Shown: positions 7,101-27,219 of the stretch, piece after piece | How the letters are laid out: the number at the start of each line of letters is the position of its first letter | Position numbering within the stretch: the stretch's first letter is position 1 | Virus record (IMG/VR): IMGVR_UViG_3300010389_000099 | Span: 1 to 27,219 of that record | Strand: one strand, 5' to 3' | Source: a virus | DNA: 27,219 nt | Position numbers and translations under genes: made by a program | Notes under the pieces: generated by a model | Told to the model about the DNA's origin: nothing | Seen by the model: the letters and a program-made list of their open reading frames with translations, nothing else | Database searches by the model: none

Positions 7101-7835
7101 CTCGAAGTTCGCGATGGGAGTGTTGCCGATGCGGATGTCCGTCACATCCACCGGTCCGTAGCCCCAGCACACAACGAAGCGGAGGTACTGGTCGTCCCCG
7201 ACGACTTCAGTGTATGGCGCGGCCCCGTAAGGCGGGACCATCTTATGCGTGCCGAGGACCGCCGGGATCGGACCGTACCTATTTGCGCGGTTTCGAGCGG
7301 ACGTGATCGAGAATGTCGGGCTTTCCTGTTCCGACCTTGTTCCGCTTCTACCGTCGAACGCATTACTCGGCGCAGACGGGCCGAACAACGCCCCGCCGAT
7401 GGCGCTGACTGCCATCGTCACGACACCAGATATAACTGCGCCGACCACTTTAGTCAGGAGCGCCCCCTTGACGAGCACCTCCGCAGCAATCAAATAACCG
7501 ACCGCCGCCTCCGCCGCGAGTGTCCCCGCAACAGCACCGACTAGAGCGATGGCCGGGCCTTCTGGGAATACGTTGAGGACGACATCCGCACCGACTTTCG
7601 GGCGCACTACCCTCCAGTGTTCCCTCGGTATCGGCATCCCGCTGATCGTGATGTGGCAGAACTCTCGGTACTCAGGCGTGGGGACAAACCGCATGACGAT
7701 CTGTTCGACCGTCATACCAACCGGCAGATCAACGAACAGCCGCTCCGACGTAAACGGATCAAAAGCAGCGGCGAGGCTAAAATAGCCGCTCACTTCATGC
7801 GGTCTGTAGACCTGTAGTGCAGTCCCGTCAGGCAA
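4113..7835 (-). CDS. J-like tail tip / central host-specificity protein
   Basis: This 1240-aa protein occupies the lambda J position, straight after the NlpC/P60 (K-like) gene. A hydrophobic segment at about residues 95-152 (rich in Ala, Val, Gly) is typical of tip proteins of this type. The middle has the hub-like pattern RNRANRYGPIPAVLGTHKM and a CWGYGPVDVTDI motif. Two fibronectin type III-like domains lie at about 770-880 and 885-982, each starting PPAP. The C-terminus ends with FDWQAIGYGRERGT, a common ending of tail tip proteins. I choose the TTG start at 7835: AGGAG lies 9 nt upstream and the frame overlaps the K-like stop by 8 bp. Residues about 407-420 hold an exact DQLNGVV duplication caused by a 21-bp tandem repeat. 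It should form the distal tail tip, contact the receptor and help DNA ejection. Confidence 0.88.
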   Translation of the reverse strand: MPDGTALQVYRPHEVSGYFSLAAAFDPFTSERLFVDLPVGMTVEQIVMRFVPTPEYREFCHITISGMPIPREHWRVVRPKVGADVVLNVFPEGPAIALVGAVAGTLAAEAAVGYLIAAEVLVKGALLTKVVGAVISGVVTMAVSAIGGALFGPSAPSNAFDGRSGTRSEQESPTFSITSARNRANRYGPIPAVLGTHKMVPPYGAAPYTEVVGDDQYLRFVVCWGYGPVDVTDIRIGNTPIANFEDVESENDFTGTLDTLTLYPNAATQEDLSITLSDTFQTRRTDGDVDEFGITITWPAGLVKFEGANRQNTSVLVTAEYQEVGAMSWTSWFSTTYTDNTAEVKRIAVRNTSISRGTYDIRIKVENQSNDSLTRDETVWSALRSFTNEDPIQLSGIAKSAYRIRASDQLNGVVDQLNGVVSMKIPTWTGSGWTVSTSATSNPAAILRYILTGAPNAKALTSAQVDDDNLGEFYEFCEAKGFKYDGVIDYRASVRQLMQDVASAGRASPRLMDNKWGVIIDTTRSTVVQHFTPRNSRDFSASIQFPEVPQALRVRFLNADKGYREDERTVFDDGYDENNATVYEVLQLAGQTDADNVYKLARYYLAGIRLRPEAFTFDVDFENLIATRGDLIRLNHDVPKIGLGFGRLTAVSGNDITLDEPVTMVISTDYSIRVRKSDGTTSVQTVTNAPGTQSTITVADATGMAVGDLFQFGETDQESLELVVTDIEPGDDLTATVKAVPYSPDIFDADATIPAYTSLLSEPVSSSLIGPPAPVITDVISDEDALRRSADGGIQIGIEVYFQPGAAGDPLNGETTRTEEFRARFRPTNSTSRWVYTPKVQNDARSFYLTPVEQGQGYDIEVQAIDRFGNVSNSTKVSDHIVIGASSPPAPLDTFTMNTVGPHSYLEWTYTPAVDVTRYEIRYHASQDITDWSRMVPIASDVPRQARSYTIPTRNGTYAIKAVDYLGNKSTAALYINASLEDPDDVNVIVTETEDPLFTGTKTNVSLNGSELQLASAGVMADWTTLAAVTTLTYGTGQGFETEGFYEFGENDLSEVYTSRVTADVNAGVSSLLNLMGSWDTLAEVATLAGAGSTDNAFVELQVNYSIADSATPSYEGWRPFAVGDYTARHLKFRARLATANAGVSPTIDGLSVTIDMPDRVASGEDLTSGAGTYSVAFSPDFRVLKSVTINAQDLQQGDYWEVTNKARTGFDITFRDSGGTAVSRTFDWQAIGYGRERGT
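6574..6614 (-). repeat. Tandem 20-bp repeat, period 21 bp, inside the J-like gene
   Basis: Two identical 20-base copies at 6574-6593 and 6595-6614 are separated by one base. They encode DQLNGVV twice in frame. This looks like a recent slippage duplication, though related tip proteins often have a diverged version of the same amino-acid repeat here. Confidence 0.85.
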
Positions 7836-18160: not shown

Positions 18161-18340
18161 ATCGTCCTCCTTGTTGTGGATGGGTGGATTGCCGGAAGCC
18201 CCGGCAGCTTCACGCGACTGGTCGCGTGTCTCGGCCCGCTTGAAGATCGACACCTTCGCATCGACGTTCGCAGGGTTATCAACGAGGCTGATTTCTTCGA
18301 GCATCAGCCCGGCCAACTTGTACTTATCCTTCGACGGCAT
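17612..18340 (-). CDS. Long form: protease C-terminal strand motif plus scaffold
   Basis: The 242-aa frame starts at an ATG overlapping the end of the protease gene by 17 bp, in the +1 frame, with GGAGGAAAGG upstream. Its first 36 residues contain LMLEEISLVDNPANVDAKVSIFKRA (EISLVDNPAN at about 16-25). That motif normally lies inside prohead proteases of the S78/XkdF type, after the catalytic serine, and is not a scaffold feature. The rest is the scaffold described under the short form. The long form is therefore either a separately translated partner that completes the protease or the 3' part of a frameshifted protease-scaffold fusion, as in lambda C/Nu3. A sequencing indel is the dull alternative. 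Confidence 0.7.
   Translation of the reverse strand: MPSKDKYKLAGLMLEEISLVDNPANVDAKVSIFKRAETRDQSREAAGASGNPPIHNKEDDMSDVEKMGEQLEDLKKQVEQLTAERDEALAKVAKGAEEVEYIEFQGEKIEKSAVPAPVLKALEAQGAALAKMEADREADALVKRANAELPHLAGDVAAKAKLLKAAEGIDGAMDILKSADKAFSMALAEKGHSNTEENSALEELDQLAKSYASDKSVSYHEAYAEVTKSGRGAELFAKRHAQ
18166..18172 (-). promoter_or_regulatory. Near-perfect Shine-Dalgarno for the internal scaffold start
   Basis: AAGGAGG on the minus strand, five bases before the in-frame ATG at 18160. It lies inside the longer reading frame and supports nested translation of the scaffold. Confidence 0.75.
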
Positions 18341-19661
18341 TTCGGATCGCCTTTCCTCCGATTGAGAACGCTTTGAGTTCGCCGGACTTCACTCGGCTCC
18401 AGATGTCATCGTCATGAACTTTCATGGCGATGATCCAGCCCTCTTGATCCGACTGGATGCCGAGCGCGTCTCCGATCTCTTTGGTGAGAGGTAGGCTGTG
18501 GATCACTTCGCCGACTTGGTCGCCGTCGTGCATCGCCTTCGCAACCCGAACGTCCATCATAAATTCATTCGCTGCCTTGACCAGCACGTCGGGTTCTATG
18601 CTGTCGCCCTGCGTGTCGTAGATTGGCTCGCCGCCTTTGCTAATCACAGACGCCCAGCCCCACACAACCCGCTGTTCTTCGTCGAACTTTACAATATCTG
18701 ACTTCATCTGACTAGACGATTTACCTACGACAGCCGACACAATAGCACGAATGGCACGCTCTAGCATAGCCCCAGTGTCCTCCTCTTGCTCATATGCGGC
18801 GCTCTCAACGCCTCCAAGGGCTGCAACCCGCTCAAGGTAGGCCTCATGCGTTGCCCCCGGCATATAGACCGCCTGCCCGTCCTGTTCGTGGACGTGGACG
18901 CCCTCCAGCCCCAACTCCATCGCCCGGCCACCGGCTTCGATTGGATCGGTGAATACGTCGTCCGACAAACGGCGCTTTTCGATCTGCATCTCTGCCTCTG
19001 CATCTGCCTTCGTCAGTTCGCTGACGCTAGCCCCTCGCTCCCACATCCGACATGACCAGTATCGGGCGCTGGTCTTGTCGGTCGCCGTGTCGCAGCTATG
19101 CCGCGACCGGAAGTTGGCACGCGCCTGTTCATCATCTCGACGAATTTCCATGTTCGGATCGCCGAACGTGACGCGCTTCACCTTGTCTCCGTCCTTCACG
19201 TAGACGCCGAACTTCTTGCTCGACCCTTTCGGGAGGCGGAACGGTTTATTCAGATCGACATCGCGGCCTTGGTATTGGGCTTTGCGTAAGGTCTCTACTT
19301 TGTGTCCTACTATCGTTCCTGTAGGCTCGCCCTCATCGTCGATTATTTCTATCTGGGCGGCAGGAGCATCTTTTGTTCCCGTGACCTTCACGTTCCCGTC
19401 AATCCCCGGCACGTCACCATCTGTAATGATACGACGCACAATTCCCCGAGCAATTCCTCCACTAGAAGACCACGAAACCCGCTGACCTACTCTGACCGAG
19501 TCTGCTTTCTTCACCGCAGCCCACGCCGAAGCGAATGCAACCTCCTCAGACTTTCCGGCCTCAAGTTGAGCGTTTACGACCGCCATAAACTGCCGCAGCT
19601 TGTCCGCTGGCAAGTTGTCCTTAACTGAGGAAGGCAGTTCGCTCGTTCTCTGATATGGCAT
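18324..19661 (-). CDS. Multi-domain XkdF-like (Peptidase_S78_2) prohead protease
   Basis: This 445-aa protein is built from modules. Residues 1-52 look like a ChaB domain (PYQRTSELPSSVKDNLP, SAWAAVKK). Residues 55-127 look like the small Tudor-type DUF2945 domain (VRVGQRVSWSSSGGIARGIVRRI). Residues about 160-207 have the phage head module VKRVTFGDPNMEIRRDD to RYWSCRMW. Residues 330-440 are the XkdF-like serine protease core: WGWASVISKGG, then KAMHDGDQVGEVIHS with candidate catalytic His378, and LKAFSIGGKA with candidate Ser433. The frame stops right after the serine segment, and the usual next motif (EISLVDNPAN) is in the overlapping +1 frame. I take ATG 19661 (TGATG overlap, GGAG 8 nt upstream) over GTG 19664. 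It should process scaffold and head proteins during maturation. The N-terminal half is A+T-richer. Confidence 0.8.
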   Translation of the reverse strand: MPYQRTSELPSSVKDNLPADKLRQFMAVVNAQLEAGKSEEVAFASAWAAVKKADSVRVGQRVSWSSSGGIARGIVRRIITDGDVPGIDGNVKVTGTKDAPAAQIEIIDDEGEPTGTIVGHKVETLRKAQYQGRDVDLNKPFRLPKGSSKKFGVYVKDGDKVKRVTFGDPNMEIRRDDEQARANFRSRHSCDTATDKTSARYWSCRMWERGASVSELTKADAEAEMQIEKRRLSDDVFTDPIEAGGRAMELGLEGVHVHEQDGQAVYMPGATHEAYLERVAALGGVESAAYEQEEDTGAMLERAIRAIVSAVVGKSSSQMKSDIVKFDEEQRVVWGWASVISKGGEPIYDTQGDSIEPDVLVKAANEFMMDVRVAKAMHDGDQVGEVIHSLPLTKEIGDALGIQSDQEGWIIAMKVHDDDIWSRVKSGELKAFSIGGKAIRNAVEG

Positions 19662-20416
19662 CACTCTGGCTCCGTATATCCAAACATTCCGGCGGTAATA
19701 GTTGCGGCTTTGTCATGATTAGCCGTAAACCCGACCCACTCACCCGCCGGGATGGGAAACGGGCCGAATTTAGGGAATGCTTCTGACGCATCTTGAATGG
19801 CGATACCAGCGACCGAATGCAAGTACCCATCATCCGCGAAGCTATCGCCGTTTATGAACGATGTCACAAGGCGCACGACTACTCTACTATCCGATGTTCC
19901 CGAAGCTGAACCAGAATACAAACCCGTCAGCATCAATCTTCGATTTGCTGGCACTCTCACAAGAGATGTATAGAACTGTAATTGACCCGCTGAAATTCGG
20001 GCATAAGTCGTTCCGCCATTTGTGAGTGTGACATTTCCCGCGACTGGACCACTCTTAGAATAAACATTGTTAATTGCGCGAATGTCCGTTGCTGTAGTCG
20101 TGACGGATGAAAGCCCGTTCAGCGTCAATGTTTCTGTTTCTTCGATTAGATCGCTGTTGAGGTATCTTATTAAAATTTCGCCAGTGTCGCTTGCCGAGGT
20201 GGAGACTGCGGTTAGTTGTATGCTGTTAGGAACCGTCAACGTTGTCGGCATCCCGGTATTCCATATGATCGTTGAACCGGACCCGATAACGTCTTTTTCT
20301 CCGAACGTGGTGAATGGAGATGTCGCGTTGACGCCACCTCTAGCAATTTCGGCGTCATTGTTCGTCCTCCAGAGGCGCTCGGTCCAGTTCGCCACAGGTT
20401 TGATCGTGTTAGCCAT
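19661..20416 (-). CDS. Uncharacterised beta-rich protein in the head gene cluster
   Basis: I do not recognise a named family. The 251-aa protein begins MANTIKPVANWTERLWRTNNDAEIARGG and is then dominated by Thr, Ser, Gly and Asn with alternating hydrophobic residues, for example IQLTAVSTSASDTGEILIRYLNSD and GPVAGNVTLTNGGTTYARI. It ends with PIPAGEWVGFTANHDKAATITAGMFGYTEPE, a layout typical of a jelly roll or other virion surface fold. No catalytic motif or signal peptide is seen. It has TGATG-type overlaps on both sides, so it is coupled into the head operon. Sampled lines are about 45% G+C against well over 60% in the MuF gene just upstream, which suggests later acquisition. A head surface or decoration role is inference. 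Confidence 0.6.
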   Translation of the reverse strand: MANTIKPVANWTERLWRTNNDAEIARGGVNATSPFTTFGEKDVIGSGSTIIWNTGMPTTLTVPNSIQLTAVSTSASDTGEILIRYLNSDLIEETETLTLNGLSSVTTTATDIRAINNVYSKSGPVAGNVTLTNGGTTYARISAGQLQFYTSLVRVPANRRLMLTGLYSGSASGTSDSRVVVRLVTSFINGDSFADDGYLHSVAGIAIQDASEAFPKFGPFPIPAGEWVGFTANHDKAATITAGMFGYTEPE

Positions 20417-22612: not shown

Positions 22613-23976
22613 TCCTCGGTGATCCCTTCCGGCTCATCCATCTCTGGCTCGTCGATCTCTGGGATGGCCTCATCGACCCGGCCCATCATGTCGTCGTCGA
22701 TCTCCGCTTCCGGCAGACCGCCGACTTCACGGAGGACATTCTGCGTGTCTTCATCGAGGAGATCGATGCCCGAACCGGACAACGCTTTGACGTACTCGCC
22801 CAGTTCTTGCAGATCGACCGGGGCGACTTCGCCCGGTATAATTCTCGGCATCGTATCGAACGGCATCCCGTTCAGTTCCCACAACGTCGGCATCAGTCGT
22901 TGATTGAGGACTGCCGCGATGTTGGTGGCGTATCCTTCGAGAGAACGTAGGAACAGATCGGACTTTGACTTCGACAGGGCAAACGACCCACGCTCGCCTT
23001 GCCCCAACATCAAGAAGTCCGCCATCGCCACCCGTGCCATATCTTGCTGATGGCGCATGATTACCTTCGTGGTGTCGATGTCCCGCGTCCCTTGGCTGGC
23101 GATCAACTCAAAGCCCACCTGATACGTCGAGGTCTTCGATCCGTCGTCATTCTCTATCAGATCGGACGGCAGGACGGCGTACCCTTGCTCGTTCAGCTTC
23201 ACGTCCCGCGCCAGCTTCTGTATCTGGTTGCGGAAGGCGACCTGACTGTCCGTTGCATCCGAGTTCAGATATTCAGACGGGATGCGAAGCACTGGCAGGC
23301 CATTTAATTCCCGCTCGATAGCGATTGCCTCGTACTTCGCAATGTTGGTGGCGTAGTGGTACGGCACATAGGCATTGCGTAGAACTGACCGACCGGTCGG
23401 CTCATCGTTCAGGCTGGCGGTGCGGAAGTGGAGCAACTTGTCCGCCGGGATGAATACGTTCTTCCGTCCGTATGCCCCGTCCTGCCGGATACCCTCAAGG
23501 CGTCCGTCGTTGCTGATGACGAACTCCTCGATAGTCCACTGAGCGCGGCTGGCTAATTTGTGGATACCGATCTTGCCGTCATCGTAGATAGACGGCGTGT
23601 CCCCGTTCATGCCGGTGCGCCGCTTGAACACCATCTCGGCAATGAAGAAACCGAACGGGATCATCGTGGTCACTTCAGCGATGAATTCCGGGAAGGTGTG
23701 ATCCATATCGTCGAAGACGCCCTCGACGAACTCCTTCGCTTCCTCTGCTGCGCTGTTATCATCCGCCGCCTCGACGCGCCACTCGACAGCCCGGAGCATC
23801 ATGTCCATCGCCATCAGGATCGCACCGATGATCGGATCGTTGTCGCGCATCTCCCGGTATTTGCGGATGCCATTGCGGCCACGAAGCTGCGGGACGTATT
23901 CGTCCCAGTTGAAGCCTTGGGAGTACGGGCTGGTCGCTACGCCCAACTCCTTCATCGGCTGTCTAGGTTTAGCCAT
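22609..23976 (-). CDS. Portal protein, DUF935-like
   Basis: This 455-aa protein follows the large terminase (8-bp overlap) and precedes MuF, the standard portal position. The N-terminus has GRNGIRKYREMRDNDPIIGAILMAMDMMLRAVEWRVE, typical of portal proteins of the Mu gp29/DUF935 type. It continues with FIAEMVFKRR, LLHFRTASLNDEPTGRSVLRNAYVPYHYATNIAKYEAIAIERELNGLPVLRIP, and the stem-like helix region KVIMRHQQDMARVAMADFLMLG. The C-terminal tail is strongly acidic (repeated DE and EPE). Twelve copies should form the DNA channel at one capsid vertex, the dock for terminase and connector. Confidence 0.85.
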   Translation of the reverse strand: MAKPRQPMKELGVATSPYSQGFNWDEYVPQLRGRNGIRKYREMRDNDPIIGAILMAMDMMLRAVEWRVEAADDNSAAEEAKEFVEGVFDDMDHTFPEFIAEVTTMIPFGFFIAEMVFKRRTGMNGDTPSIYDDGKIGIHKLASRAQWTIEEFVISNDGRLEGIRQDGAYGRKNVFIPADKLLHFRTASLNDEPTGRSVLRNAYVPYHYATNIAKYEAIAIERELNGLPVLRIPSEYLNSDATDSQVAFRNQIQKLARDVKLNEQGYAVLPSDLIENDDGSKTSTYQVGFELIASQGTRDIDTTKVIMRHQQDMARVAMADFLMLGQGERGSFALSKSKSDLFLRSLEGYATNIAAVLNQRLMPTLWELNGMPFDTMPRIIPGEVAPVDLQELGEYVKALSGSGIDLLDEDTQNVLREVGGLPEAEIDDDMMGRVDEAIPEIDEPEMDEPEGITEE

Positions 23977-25258
23977 TAATCACCTCGGCCCAGTTCACTT
24001 GACGCTCTCCGGTCATGCCCAGCTTGGACGGCTTGGCACGCCGGACGCCCTCAACGGCGTACCGCAGACTGTCGATGACGTGGTTCTTCTTGTCTTCCAA
24101 CACAGGCAACACCTCATCGGTCTGCGGGTCAACTTTCCACCGGTAATGCGTCAACTCGTCGATGGTGTGACGGCACCTCGGATGCGCGACTATATCATAA
24201 TTCTTGAGAAACTCGATACCATCCATGACAGAACCCGGACCTTTTCTTGCCGGACGGATATTGAAGCCCTTCCGCTTCATGTAGCTGATGGTCTCAGGGC
24301 GGGCGCTGTCCGCAACAATCGGCCACTTCAGCGCCCCCTCGATGCCGGGGTATTGCTTCGGATTGTCCCAGTCATCGCTGCTTCCGGCGAACAGTGCGGG
24401 TGTGTGCTCGATCTCGCAACCCACAGCATACGCCTCGTGATCGATGTACAGCGTCCGGTCTGTGATGAAGCACCGCACCAACACCGACGGATCGACGCTG
24501 TATCCCCAGTCGGCCCCGTAGTAGAACCGCTCGATGTCGTCCGGCGTCCTGAACTCGTCAACGATCCAGTTATTGAACACCCGGCTCTCGCTGCGGCTTA
24601 GGTACTCGCCCTGCCAGATGTGGCCGAACTTCTCCGGGTCTCGTTTCCTGTCCCACTCCATTTGCTGCCGCAGCACGTCAGGGAACCACGGATTGTCGGA
24701 CCAGTTCATCTCGACGATCTTGCTGTCAGGTGGAGGGTCCTTCTTGAACATCTCGTCGGTCGGAGATCCGTCTGTCTCCGGGTTCCACGTCACCCATATC
24801 TCGCTGTTCGCTTCCCGGACGGTCGGCATGATCTTGTCCCACGCCGCCCTCGATACCGGCTCGGCCTCATCGACCCACAGGATCAGGATGCGGGCCTTCG
24901 ACTTGATGCTGTCCAGATTGTAGCGGAGACCTGTGAACTTGAACTCGACCCGTTTGCACCGGGTTCGGATGTAGCGTTCGCCGATGTCGAAGTGTTCGGC
25001 GAGCCACGGTTCCGACAGGATCGCGTGCTTCACCTCTGCCATCGAACTCTCATCGAGGGAGTTCATGTACTCACGACCGCAAAGAATGATCCCGCTGATC
25101 CCGGCCTGTGCGTAGATCAATGCACGCACAGCAGCCATCTTCGCGAAGGTTCTCGTCTTACCCGACCCCCGACCGCCCCATGCGCCACGGAACCGCGCCT
25201 CCCCGGCGAAGACCGGGATCAGCTTCGGCGGGACTTCGAGTTCAACGGTTTGGCTCAT
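23969..25258 (-). CDS. terL: Terminase large subunit
   Basis: This 429-aa packaging motor has the full set of motifs. Walker A is GGRGSGKT at residues 28-35, Walker B is ILILWVDEAEP with Asp130 and Glu131, and the coupling motif is WVTWNPE near 156-161. The C-terminal RNase H-like nuclease has candidate metal ligands Asp250 (YYGADWGYSVDPS), Asp273 or Glu275 (YIDHEAY) and Asp318 (IVADSARPE). It is of the Terminase_3/PBSX type. It pumps DNA into the prohead through the portal and cuts it into genome units. It overlaps the small subunit by 17 bp and the portal by 8 bp. The packaging type (cos or pac) cannot be read. Confidence 0.93.
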   Translation of the reverse strand: MSQTVELEVPPKLIPVFAGEARFRGAWGGRGSGKTRTFAKMAAVRALIYAQAGISGIILCGREYMNSLDESSMAEVKHAILSEPWLAEHFDIGERYIRTRCKRVEFKFTGLRYNLDSIKSKARILILWVDEAEPVSRAAWDKIMPTVREANSEIWVTWNPETDGSPTDEMFKKDPPPDSKIVEMNWSDNPWFPDVLRQQMEWDRKRDPEKFGHIWQGEYLSRSESRVFNNWIVDEFRTPDDIERFYYGADWGYSVDPSVLVRCFITDRTLYIDHEAYAVGCEIEHTPALFAGSSDDWDNPKQYPGIEGALKWPIVADSARPETISYMKRKGFNIRPARKGPGSVMDGIEFLKNYDIVAHPRCRHTIDELTHYRWKVDPQTDEVLPVLEDKKNHVIDSLRYAVEGVRRAKPSKLGMTGERQVNWAEVING

Positions 25259-25544
25259 GCTCTATGACTTTCGGCGCGACCAGTTTGATCTGCGCGAATT
25301 GTACCGGCTCGTCGTTGGCGTCCACGACTTGCGTCGGCAAAATCTTACCGAGGAGGATCAGGAACTCCTTCGGGTAAAGCTGCATCATGCGACGCAGCCA
25401 ATCCTCGCCGCCGATGTCCTTGAACGGTCCGTCTGCCGGTCCCTTGTAGAAGGCATCGAGGACAGCGACCTTCACGTCCCGCGTGAACTTATTCGGAACG
25501 CCCTTCTTTCTTCCGCCTGTTTTCGGTTGCCCTTTGCCAGCCAT
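25242..25544 (-). CDS. Terminase small subunit-like protein (DUF5681-type)
   Basis: This gene encodes 100 aa from the ATG at 25544 (AGAGGG about 11 nt upstream). The start MAGKGQPKTGGRKKGVPNKFTRDVKVAVLDAF is the well-known DUF5681-like opening, a basic GGRKKGxPNK segment that probably contacts DNA. A conserved WLRRMMQLYPKEFLILLGKILP helix follows. It sits directly before and overlaps the large terminase, so recognition of the packaging start is the likely job. The longer frame up to 25646 only reads through the nuclease gene end. Confidence 0.78.
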   Translation of the reverse strand: MAGKGQPKTGGRKKGVPNKFTRDVKVAVLDAFYKGPADGPFKDIGGEDWLRRMMQLYPKEFLILLGKILPTQVVDANDEPVQFAQIKLVAPKVIEHEPNR

Positions 25545-25582
25545 GTCTAAAAGCCCTCTGCTATAGACCTTGAGTATAGCGA

Positions 25583-25909
25583 CTAGACGGACTTGATGCC
25601 AGCCCTCTCCAGAAGGTCGAGCAAGGTCGCCTCCTCCATGATCCACAGGCGGCGCTGACGGTCCTCACGGACGCAGAGAAGATGTGCCCCGTCCTGATCG
25701 AGAGACTGATAAAGGAACTTGTATCCGCTTTTCTTCCGTTTGCATTCGACGGTGTACGGTCCCAGCTTCAGGTCGCCTTCGAGGTCGGCGTGCGCCGCCT
25801 TGAACGCACCACTGCCGAAGACGCGCTGACACGGGACGCCGTTCGCTTGCATCGCCAGAACGGTCTCCCGCTCCAATTCATACCCCCGCGCTTTGTTCCG
25901 GTTAGCCAT
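25583..25909 (-). CDS. Small PD-(D/E)XK nuclease, resolvase-like
   Basis: This 108-aa protein resembles Hjc-like and other small phage PD-(D/E)XK nucleases. The N-terminal ARGYELERETVLAM carries an acidic Glu in helix 1, Asp46 lies in ADLEGDLKLG, and the E-x-K pair is Glu55/Lys57 in YTVECKRKK. A Gln in FLYQSLDQDG (Gln68) adds to the usual motif set. Such enzymes cut branched DNA, for instance Holliday junctions before packaging, or act in recombination. I choose ATG 25909 with AGGAG 6 nt upstream. The frame continues upstream to 25957 through the repeat region with GGTNMANM, but that start has no Shine-Dalgarno. It leads the packaging gene block. Confidence 0.75.
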   Translation of the reverse strand: MANRNKARGYELERETVLAMQANGVPCQRVFGSGAFKAAHADLEGDLKLGPYTVECKRKKSGYKFLYQSLDQDGAHLLCVREDRQRRLWIMEEATLLDLLERAGIKSV

Positions 25910-25929
25910 CAGGTTCTCCTTTCGTTCGC

Positions 25930-26027
25930 ACATATTCGCCATATTCGTACCCCCCACCCCATAAACACCAAAAACCGCCCAAAAATCAGTAGAGAGGGGG
26001 TAGGGGGTACGAATATGGCGAATATGT
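25930..26027. repeat. 31-bp inverted repeat (one mismatch) with 36-bp spacer
   Basis: Arms at 25930-25960 and 25997-26027 pair with a single mismatch (25955/26002), and the outer 24 bases of the pairing are perfect. Each arm has one full CATATTCGTACC and one shortened CATATTCGCC. In a transcript running toward the nuclease gene it would fold into a long hairpin just upstream of the nuclease start. Confidence 0.9.
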
Positions 26028-26031
26028 ATAT

Positions 26032-26060
26032 ATAATATACAAAAAACCCTTTGTTTTCAG
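26032..26060 (-). promoter_or_regulatory. Candidate sigma70-type promoter for the packaging/morphogenesis operon
   Basis: On the minus strand, CTGAAA (26060-26055) and TATTAT (26037-26032) are separated by 17 nt. The boxes match 4/6 and 5/6 of the consensus. Transcription would begin near 26025, inside one arm of the inverted repeat, with the perfect palindrome just upstream. This places motif copies on both sides, as expected for a regulated promoter. The evidence is pattern-only. Confidence 0.35.
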
Positions 26061-26067
26061 GCACTTG

Positions 26068-26097
26068 ACATATTCGTACCCTAGGGTACGAATATGT
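26068..26097. repeat. Perfect 30-bp palindrome
   Basis: The half-site ACATATTCGTACCCT is followed directly by its reverse complement, giving a 30-bp uninterrupted palindrome centred between 26082 and 26083. It consists of two opposed copies of the array motif and is likely bound by a dimeric protein. Confidence 0.93.
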
Positions 26098-26180
26098 ACG
26101 AACATTCGTACCTTTTTGCCCGGCAGTTATTCGTACTTTTTCACATATTCGTACCCTAAAACCCCACATATTCGTACCTT

Positions 26181-27219
26181 TTAAATCCCCGTAGAGACGA
26201 AGACATCGAACGGCTTCGATCCTTCCTTCTCGACCTTCTGCTTTTTGATGTACCGGGCGTCGATCAGGTCTTGCAGCACGGTGTCGAGATACGCCGCCTT
26301 CATCTTTCCGAACTTGCGGAGTAGTAGGCTGCGGGTCACGTCCTCGTTCTCCTCGATAAACGTCCTCACCGTCTGCTTCCGCTTGGCGAACTTCGGGTCG
26401 TGATCGTCCACGTCGAGGTCTTCGGCTGCGCCGTGCATGAAGCCGAACGACTGGTACACGAACTCCCGCGCCCATTCGACATGATCGTAGGCGATGACCG
26501 GCTTGAACACGTCTTGAGCGTCGCCGACAGCGAGGACACCGGCGACCCGGATCACGTTCTCACAGATGCGCGGCGACAGCCCGGCGATCAGGTGGTCGTT
26601 GGTACTTGCAGCCAACTCATTCGCGTCGTCTCTGATGCTCTCGATCAGCGCGGTTGCATCATCGTCAGCGAGGATCATCACGGTCCCTCGGTACATCTGG
26701 GACTTGTCCGCATCTCGGAGGTCGTTCGCAAAGCGCAGCGCAGACAGTCGTGCAATGCGCTCTCGCAGCCCGTCAGGCATATCTCCCAGTCCGCGACCGT
26801 TCTTCGTCCGCATCACCTCCTTCGTCTCCTGAACCATCAGGAGACGGTTCAGGAAGCCGTCTGACACGCTTTCCTCGGTCAAGGCATCTGTCAGGGTCTC
26901 GACGGTCGTTGTGCCCATGATGCAGACGTAGGGGCTGTCTACGAGCGGCTTCGCGTCCTTGGCGTTGGAGTACACCTTCGCCGGGATGACGCTGCCCTTG
27001 TGCAGCCCATATGCAGACATGGCGAACTTGAGGACGTTGGAACTGTGTGCTCCAGCCTTCGAGGATGCGAACTTGAGGTACTTACCGAACTCGTCCGGCA
27101 TCCACGTCAATCGTGACGATCCGAGGAGCGCCTGATGGAACCCCGTCTCGGACGCCGGATCGGCGACGACTTCGAGGTCGTCGGCAGCGCGGAGGACATC
27201 CTGCACGACGGTCCGGGGC
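26181..27219 (-). CDS. DUF3987-type primase/helicase-like replication protein (5' end outside window)
   Basis: The frame is open to the right edge (the codons before the GTG at 27206 continue without a stop), so about 345 C-terminal residues are visible and the N-terminus with the Walker A region lies outside. The visible part has SETGFHQALLGSSRLTWMPDEFGKYLKF, then YVCIMGTTTVETLTDALTEESVSDGFLNRLLM, a pattern of DUF3987 proteins, which serve as primase-helicase-like replication proteins in phages and mobile elements. A long helical domain follows (AREFVYQSFGFMHGAAEDL), ending in a winged-helix-like tail (TRSLLLRKFGKMKAAYLDTVLQDLIDARYIKKQ). Its stop lies three bases from the nearest motif of the repeat array, so array and replication gene may belong to one replication module. 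Confidence 0.72.
   Translation of the reverse strand, partial: PRTVVQDVLRAADDLEVVADPASETGFHQALLGSSRLTWMPDEFGKYLKFASSKAGAHSSNVLKFAMSAYGLHKGSVIPAKVYSNAKDAKPLVDSPYVCIMGTTTVETLTDALTEESVSDGFLNRLLMVQETKEVMRTKNGRGLGDMPDGLRERIARLSALRFANDLRDADKSQMYRGTVMILADDDATALIESIRDDANELAASTNDHLIAGLSPRICENVIRVAGVLAVGDAQDVFKPVIAYDHVEWAREFVYQSFGFMHGAAEDLDVDDHDPKFAKRKQTVRTFIEENEDVTRSLLLRKFGKMKAAYLDTVLQDLIDARYIKKQKVEKEGSKPFDVFVSTGI

Follow-up and report, generated by a model that had tools for sequence, protein, structure and literature searches.

What is the function of a dense cluster of short repeats that lies, in a viral genome, between a replication gene and the genes for DNA packaging? The question is raised by a 27,219-bp viral record, a partial contig that was analyzed over its whole length (hereafter, the window), in which a non-coding array of about 270 bases begins a few bases from the stop codon of a primase-helicase gene and reaches almost to the start of the next gene. 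A sequence-only reading of this DNA had placed three options side by side, namely, a replication origin, a packaging-related site and the operator of a late-gene regulator. The analysis described below indicates that the array is very probably an iteron replication origin recognized by the neighboring primase-helicase. Iteron origins located 3' of a primase-helicase gene are of a kind already known from P4, SaPI and Sfi21, with pRN1 as the precedent for the long hairpin.

Read along the minus strand, the DUF3987 primase-helicase gene ends at the array; next come a short nuclease gene, another short gene where terS would be expected, and terL, and thereafter the genes of a portal (Mu-like), a head protein (Mu F-like), a protease and the major head protein. 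The array had been placed between the replication gene and the packaging operon, and this location stands, with the addition of the nuclease gene ahead of the terminase genes. The features to which the argument refers are as follows:

26181..27218, minus strand: proposed initiator, a DUF3987 primase-helicase represented by its C-terminal 345 residues (gene cut by the contig end)
26184..26396, minus strand: winged-helix domain predicted by AlphaFold2, residues 275-345 of the initiator, the proposed iteron reader
25910..26180, strand not assigned: candidate replication origin, the complete array in the non-coding gap from the primase-helicase gene to the nuclease gene
25583..25909, minus strand: small nuclease gene (PHROG 244, RusA-like), with an ATG start and a ribosome site
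23969..25258, minus strand: terL (the sequence shared with loci L190 and L191 starts at 25239, near the terL start)

The XkdF-type protease (PF14550) encoded at 18324-19664 (minus strand) also matches ChaB (PF06150) and Hva1_TUDOR (PF11160) close to the N-terminus; head proteases do not usually show this combination.

The array is built on one word, CATATTCGTACC, in both orientations. All six exact copies fall within 239 bp, and there is no other in the whole record, for which 100 dinucleotide shuffles gave an expectation of 0.00 copies. Four degenerate copies had also been claimed; three can be listed, with 2-3 mismatches, and two further words, truncated to CATATTCG, lie within the arms of a long inverted repeat. 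The 30-bp perfect palindrome and the 31-bp inverted repeat reported by the sequence-only reading are both present, and both are built from the motif. The elements of the array are:

25940..25951, plus strand: iteron, exact
26006..26017, minus strand: iteron, exact
26069..26080, plus strand: iteron, exact
26085..26096, minus strand: iteron, exact
26144..26155, plus strand: iteron, exact
26167..26178, plus strand: iteron, exact
26095..26106, minus strand: degenerate iteron, 3 mismatches
26101..26112, plus strand: degenerate iteron, 2 mismatches
26126..26137, plus strand: degenerate iteron, 3 mismatches
26068..26097: 30-bp perfect palindrome (15+15 nt, 100%) formed by two convergent iterons, folding z -5.6
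25930..26027: long inverted repeat of 98 nt, a possible hairpin, folding z -10.0
26018..26060: A+T-rich patch with 25.6% G+C (contig, 57.3%), which may serve as the DNA unwinding element

The arms of the long inverted repeat (25930-25960 and 25997-26027; 31 nt, 97% identity, spacer of 36 nt) are made of iterons and a C-rich/G-rich part. When this repeat and the palindrome were folded as single-stranded DNA, no shuffle equaled either. G-rich runs of the GGGGTGGGGGG type were seen in several arrays (window, 25950-25960 and 25996-26007; L007, ~11150; L084, ~7190) and are possibly G-quadruplex-prone or a piece of a common core. BLAST found nothing like the array among phage and plasmid records, in keeping with a private word, and an Rfam search of the array returned nothing. 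The convergent motif pair, searched in IMG/VR, had two matches outside the family (L010 and L011), each a single pair.

Four features of an iteron origin are found together in the window: a repeated short word in non-coding DNA 3' of the putative initiator gene, an adjoining gene of the primase-helicase kind (with matches to DUF3987 and a DNA-primase PHROG), a C-terminal DNA-binding domain on its product (the predicted winged helix), and an A+T-rich element among the iterons (26018-26060). The protein was modeled with AlphaFold2 using 14 aligned relatives. Residues 275-345 are predicted as three helices and a two-stranded wing (pLDDT 84-90), and the remainder of the model, helicase part included, is of low confidence. 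Structure comparison of the C-terminal domain retrieved winged-helix DNA-binding proteins and regulators (Z about 10-11); matches of longer stretches to MCM and Orc1/Cdc6 were weaker and, having E-values above 0.01, are merely suggestive. The predicted fold is thus one shared with DNA-binding proteins, which does not by itself demonstrate iteron binding.

The closest relative in a protein search is a single phage lineage at 42% identity, represented by L007 and two near-identical copies. The protein of L007 is complete (719 aa) and has both a Prim-Pol and a DUF3987 domain, from which we infer an N-terminal Prim-Pol domain for the window protein as well. The order of genes is that of the window, with the Prim-Pol-DUF3987 gene, an array and a nuclease gene 59% identical to that of the window. 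The L007 array occupies the position of the window array but uses another word, GGTGTCACC, with nine AAGGTGTCACC-like copies in both orientations; 6 of the 8 GGTGTCACC copies in the 41.5-kb record fall in the array. A CAGTAAGGG-like or CGGTAAGGG-like element is common to arrays that otherwise differ in their word (L007, ~11080 and ~11210; L017, ~7110; L023, ~7115). The gene after the array is often small and nuclease-like (window, L007, L017, L040, L058 and L014), in differing sequence families and mostly as judged by eye rather than by profile, so that primase, origin and nuclease look like a recurring module.

The breadth of this arrangement was assessed in a survey of DUF3987 and Prim-Pol relatives, which formed 62 families after grouping at 50% identity; a scan of genome contigs found 8 relatives, mostly on MAG contigs. 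Repeated 8-mers on both strands were scored in every 350-nt segment of each locus, and the 350 nt after the primase-helicase stop codon were ranked against all other segments, with nearby ones left out. These 350 nt ranked first in 29 of the 62 families and exceeded 200 shuffles of themselves in 35; the strict rank-first test failed in 33 families, and the shuffles were not exceeded in 27. The same test applied before the start codon gave 0/55, and after terL it gave 1/64 (loci here ungrouped by similarity). The window array, with a score of 159 against 17 elsewhere, is third of all. The crr region of P4 and the origin of Sfi21, used as positive controls, each rank first by the same score. Where no array lies directly 3' of the gene, some families have strong repeats at a distance of 1-2 kb downstream and many have none; very strong clusters 1-2 kb past the primase gene were observed in L165, L173, L127 and L148.

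The words differ between families, and in most relatives many words form short clusters, direct and inverted. A+T-rich patches like that of the window occur in most relatives' arrays and are missing from a few (for example, L131). The helicase part of the array-bearing Prim-Pol fusions is, by Pfam, of the DUF3987, VapE-like, AAA_25 or DUF5906 type (in L128, the domain search covered part of the frame), and an array also follows one Toprim primase. Among close relatives, the array was absent solely where the adjacent initiator gene was absent; loss of the array beside unchanged flanking genes, which the sequence-only reading had named as evidence against it, was not encountered. Its proposed motif search came out in favor of an origin: the window has a single cluster, and in five near-complete relatives of 37-59 kb the words lie essentially in one cluster, with 11/11, 9/9, 8/8 (within about 720 bp) and 4/4 copies clustered in the four genomes other than L007. 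The GC-skew analysis that it also proposed showed no consistent turn at the array in these five relatives.

Evidence on what the word belongs to comes from L190 and L191, which match the window at 93.6% identity over 3,651 nt from the terL start onwards, so that the late operons are nearly the same. Upstream of terL, the replication module of these loci is unrelated to that of the window and encodes a protein of 656 aa with Toprim and AAA_25 domains; TACGAATA is absent from them, and a GGTAACA array lies 3' of the primase stop codon. The structure predicted for the C-terminus of the L191 primase has a pLDDT of 40, too low to be informative. Alignment of L191:1-5011 with window 25239-27219 places the exchange of the whole replication module at the terL start. 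Because L190 and L191 share the late operon but lack TACGAATA, the word goes with the initiator gene and not with terL or the late genes.

This exchange weighs on the late-gene operator that had been proposed, and on a wider version of it in which a regulator, perhaps the primase-helicase itself, would control the nuclease-terminase-late operon or its own gene through the words. The array does precede the start of that operon, and a weak promoter-like site on the operon strand (26060-26032) overlaps it; however, this match is at chance (1 found, 0.5 expected), as are promoter and terminator matches within the array generally. A nearly identical late operon exists without the words in L190 and L191, nine or more sites exceed what is usual for an operator, and copies before several genes were not found, the words forming one cluster in the window and recurring before no other genes in the five near-complete relatives. 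We consider such an operator very unlikely, and a secondary autoregulatory role of the words is possible.

The same comparison bears on a packaging (pac) site read by the small terminase subunit, the third of the original options. The array is near terS and terL, and the exchange in L190 and L191 took in the terS-position gene along with the primase and the word, so that this comparison leaves a packaging role some probability. Against it, the array abuts the primase gene, with the nuclease gene between array and terS; arrays stay beside the primase in families whose downstream genes differ; the control after terL is empty but for the one locus in 64; and symmetric repeats in both orientations around an A+T patch are typical of origins. 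A pac site is accordingly disfavored, to the point of being extremely improbable. The origin reading draws its support from the single cluster, the conserved position, the motif that travels with the initiator gene and the characterized analogues.

Among these analogues, P4 alpha is a multi-domain primase-helicase that binds origin repeats by a winged helix (PMC4234260). In P4, 46 bp separate the alpha gene from crr on its 3' side, where ten type 1 repeats are annotated in both orientations. P4 differs from the window in having a Toprim-type primase instead of Prim-Pol, its own word (GGTGAACA) and a further cluster of repeats, some 4.7 kb from the first, that carries the origin annotation. The window, a partial contig, showed no counterpart of this further cluster. 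The SaPI and SCCmec Cch2 origins comprise short iterons just downstream of the initiator helicase gene, the C-terminal domain of which binds them (PMC7581432). The iterons of the window are likewise directly downstream of the helicase gene, but the staphylococcal islands and cassettes use DUF927 or Primase_Cterm/D5 helicases, whereas the window is a tailed-phage contig with DUF3987. In Streptococcus phage Sfi21, the annotated origin is a non-coding region overlapping the 3' end of the primase gene, with AGTAACTAA words repeated around an A+T-rich core; the word and the host are different, and by annotation the primase resembles those of plasmids.

The pRN1 origin is a 100-nt stem-loop located 54 bp 3' of orf904, a gene for a Prim-Pol-helicase-winged-helix protein, and the same authors proposed a similar arrangement for Bordetella phage BIP-1 (PMC4234260). 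In BPP-1, which is near-identical to BIP-1, we found an inverted repeat ahead of the endonuclease gene that itself consists of TTTGCCTCG words in several copies, with one extra gene between the primase and the repeat. The window shares with pRN1 the helicase, the winged helix (here predicted) and an origin-like element 3' of the gene, here the 98-nt inverted repeat, and the Prim-Pol domain is seen in L007. This resemblance raises the alternative that function resides in the long inverted repeat and that the words matter merely as hairpin arms, for which the folding score of the inverted repeat, the pRN1 precedent and relatives with long inverted repeats and few words could be cited. Such a relative is L013 (Loktanella phage pCB2051-A), in which 7142-7514, 3' of the primase, contains few repeated words and two long inverted repeats (41 nt at 93% and 56 nt at 79%), perhaps a hairpin-only version of the origin design. 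The pRN1 origin, however, is one stem-loop without iterons, whereas the window combines a hairpin with six exact and several degenerate words, four of the exact ones outside the long inverted repeat, and the short direct and inverted clusters of most relatives do not fit a pure hairpin either. An origin of the stem-loop type alone is therefore unlikely, although the coexistence of hairpin and iterons means that the two models may be two views of one design.

Origins for DUF3987-winged-helix fusions were not found reported in the open-access literature, a scope within which the absence of reports is no proof of novelty. In the passages of Kazlauskas et al. consulted, the PrimQH and All3500 primase families are described as combining a primase with DUF3987, many with a C-terminal winged helix, and for the related PolpTN2 the winged helix is suggested as the origin recognizer; the DUF3987 members are described there without an origin or iterons (PMC5862659).

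Under the iteron-origin reading, the primase-helicase would bind the CATATTCGTACC iterons as duplex through its modeled C-terminal winged helix. Iterons flanking the A+T patch and in both palindromic elements would load helicase rings in opposite orientations, the A+T patch would melt, hairpins may extrude, and the same protein would unwind the DNA and prime both strands. We infer this course of binding, melting, ring loading, priming and initiation from the layout of the locus and from the known systems.

The words could instead, or in addition, be priming sites, that is, single-strand templates for primer starts by the Prim-Pol domain, with one set on each strand, like TTTGGTTA for NrS-1 polymerase. 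The copies do lie on both strands; the NrS-1 polymerase depends on an 8-nt word in its template, found once per strand in the center of the phage genome (PMC8718748, PMC7102993); and the priming preference of CCPol-MP resembles the origin repeats (PMC7581432). Yet a Toprim primase, unrelated to Prim-Pol, also has an array at this position, perfect palindromes point to a symmetric complex bound to duplex DNA, and the P4 and Cch2 repeats are bound as duplex, all of which makes priming sites an improbable account of the array. A combined scheme, in which the same protein reads the word twice, as duplex via the winged helix for loading and as single strand via Prim-Pol for primer start, within a very large set of private initiator-word pairs formed by phage primase-helicases, is improbable.

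In the L017 clade (L017, L023, L026, L029, L039, L095 and L096; 350 nt after the primase stop codon), the words drift (TGACGAAAGT, TGCCGGAAGT, TGCCAGAAA, TGTCATAATT and others). The wing type goes with the 3' half of the word: the word ends in AAGT for 3/3 proteins with a short GRKR/GRSR wing and for 0/4 with a longer SGxGRPR wing, a pattern noticed post hoc among seven proteins, with the L096 wing taken from the frame past an in-frame stop. L023 is closer to L039 in every domain, yet its wing type and word ending are those of L017. Across one clade, motif distance did not correlate significantly with winged-helix distance (rho 0.22, 15 pairs), nor with the distance of any domain.

For a specialist, the interest lies in the breadth of the position rule and in the module exchange. 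If the word is read twice, word and protein would drift together, and whole replication modules could be exchanged between phages without cross-talk. Initiator-origin recognition becomes tractable through the exchanged module and the word drift seen in a single clade, and both hint that independent replicons are available in large numbers.
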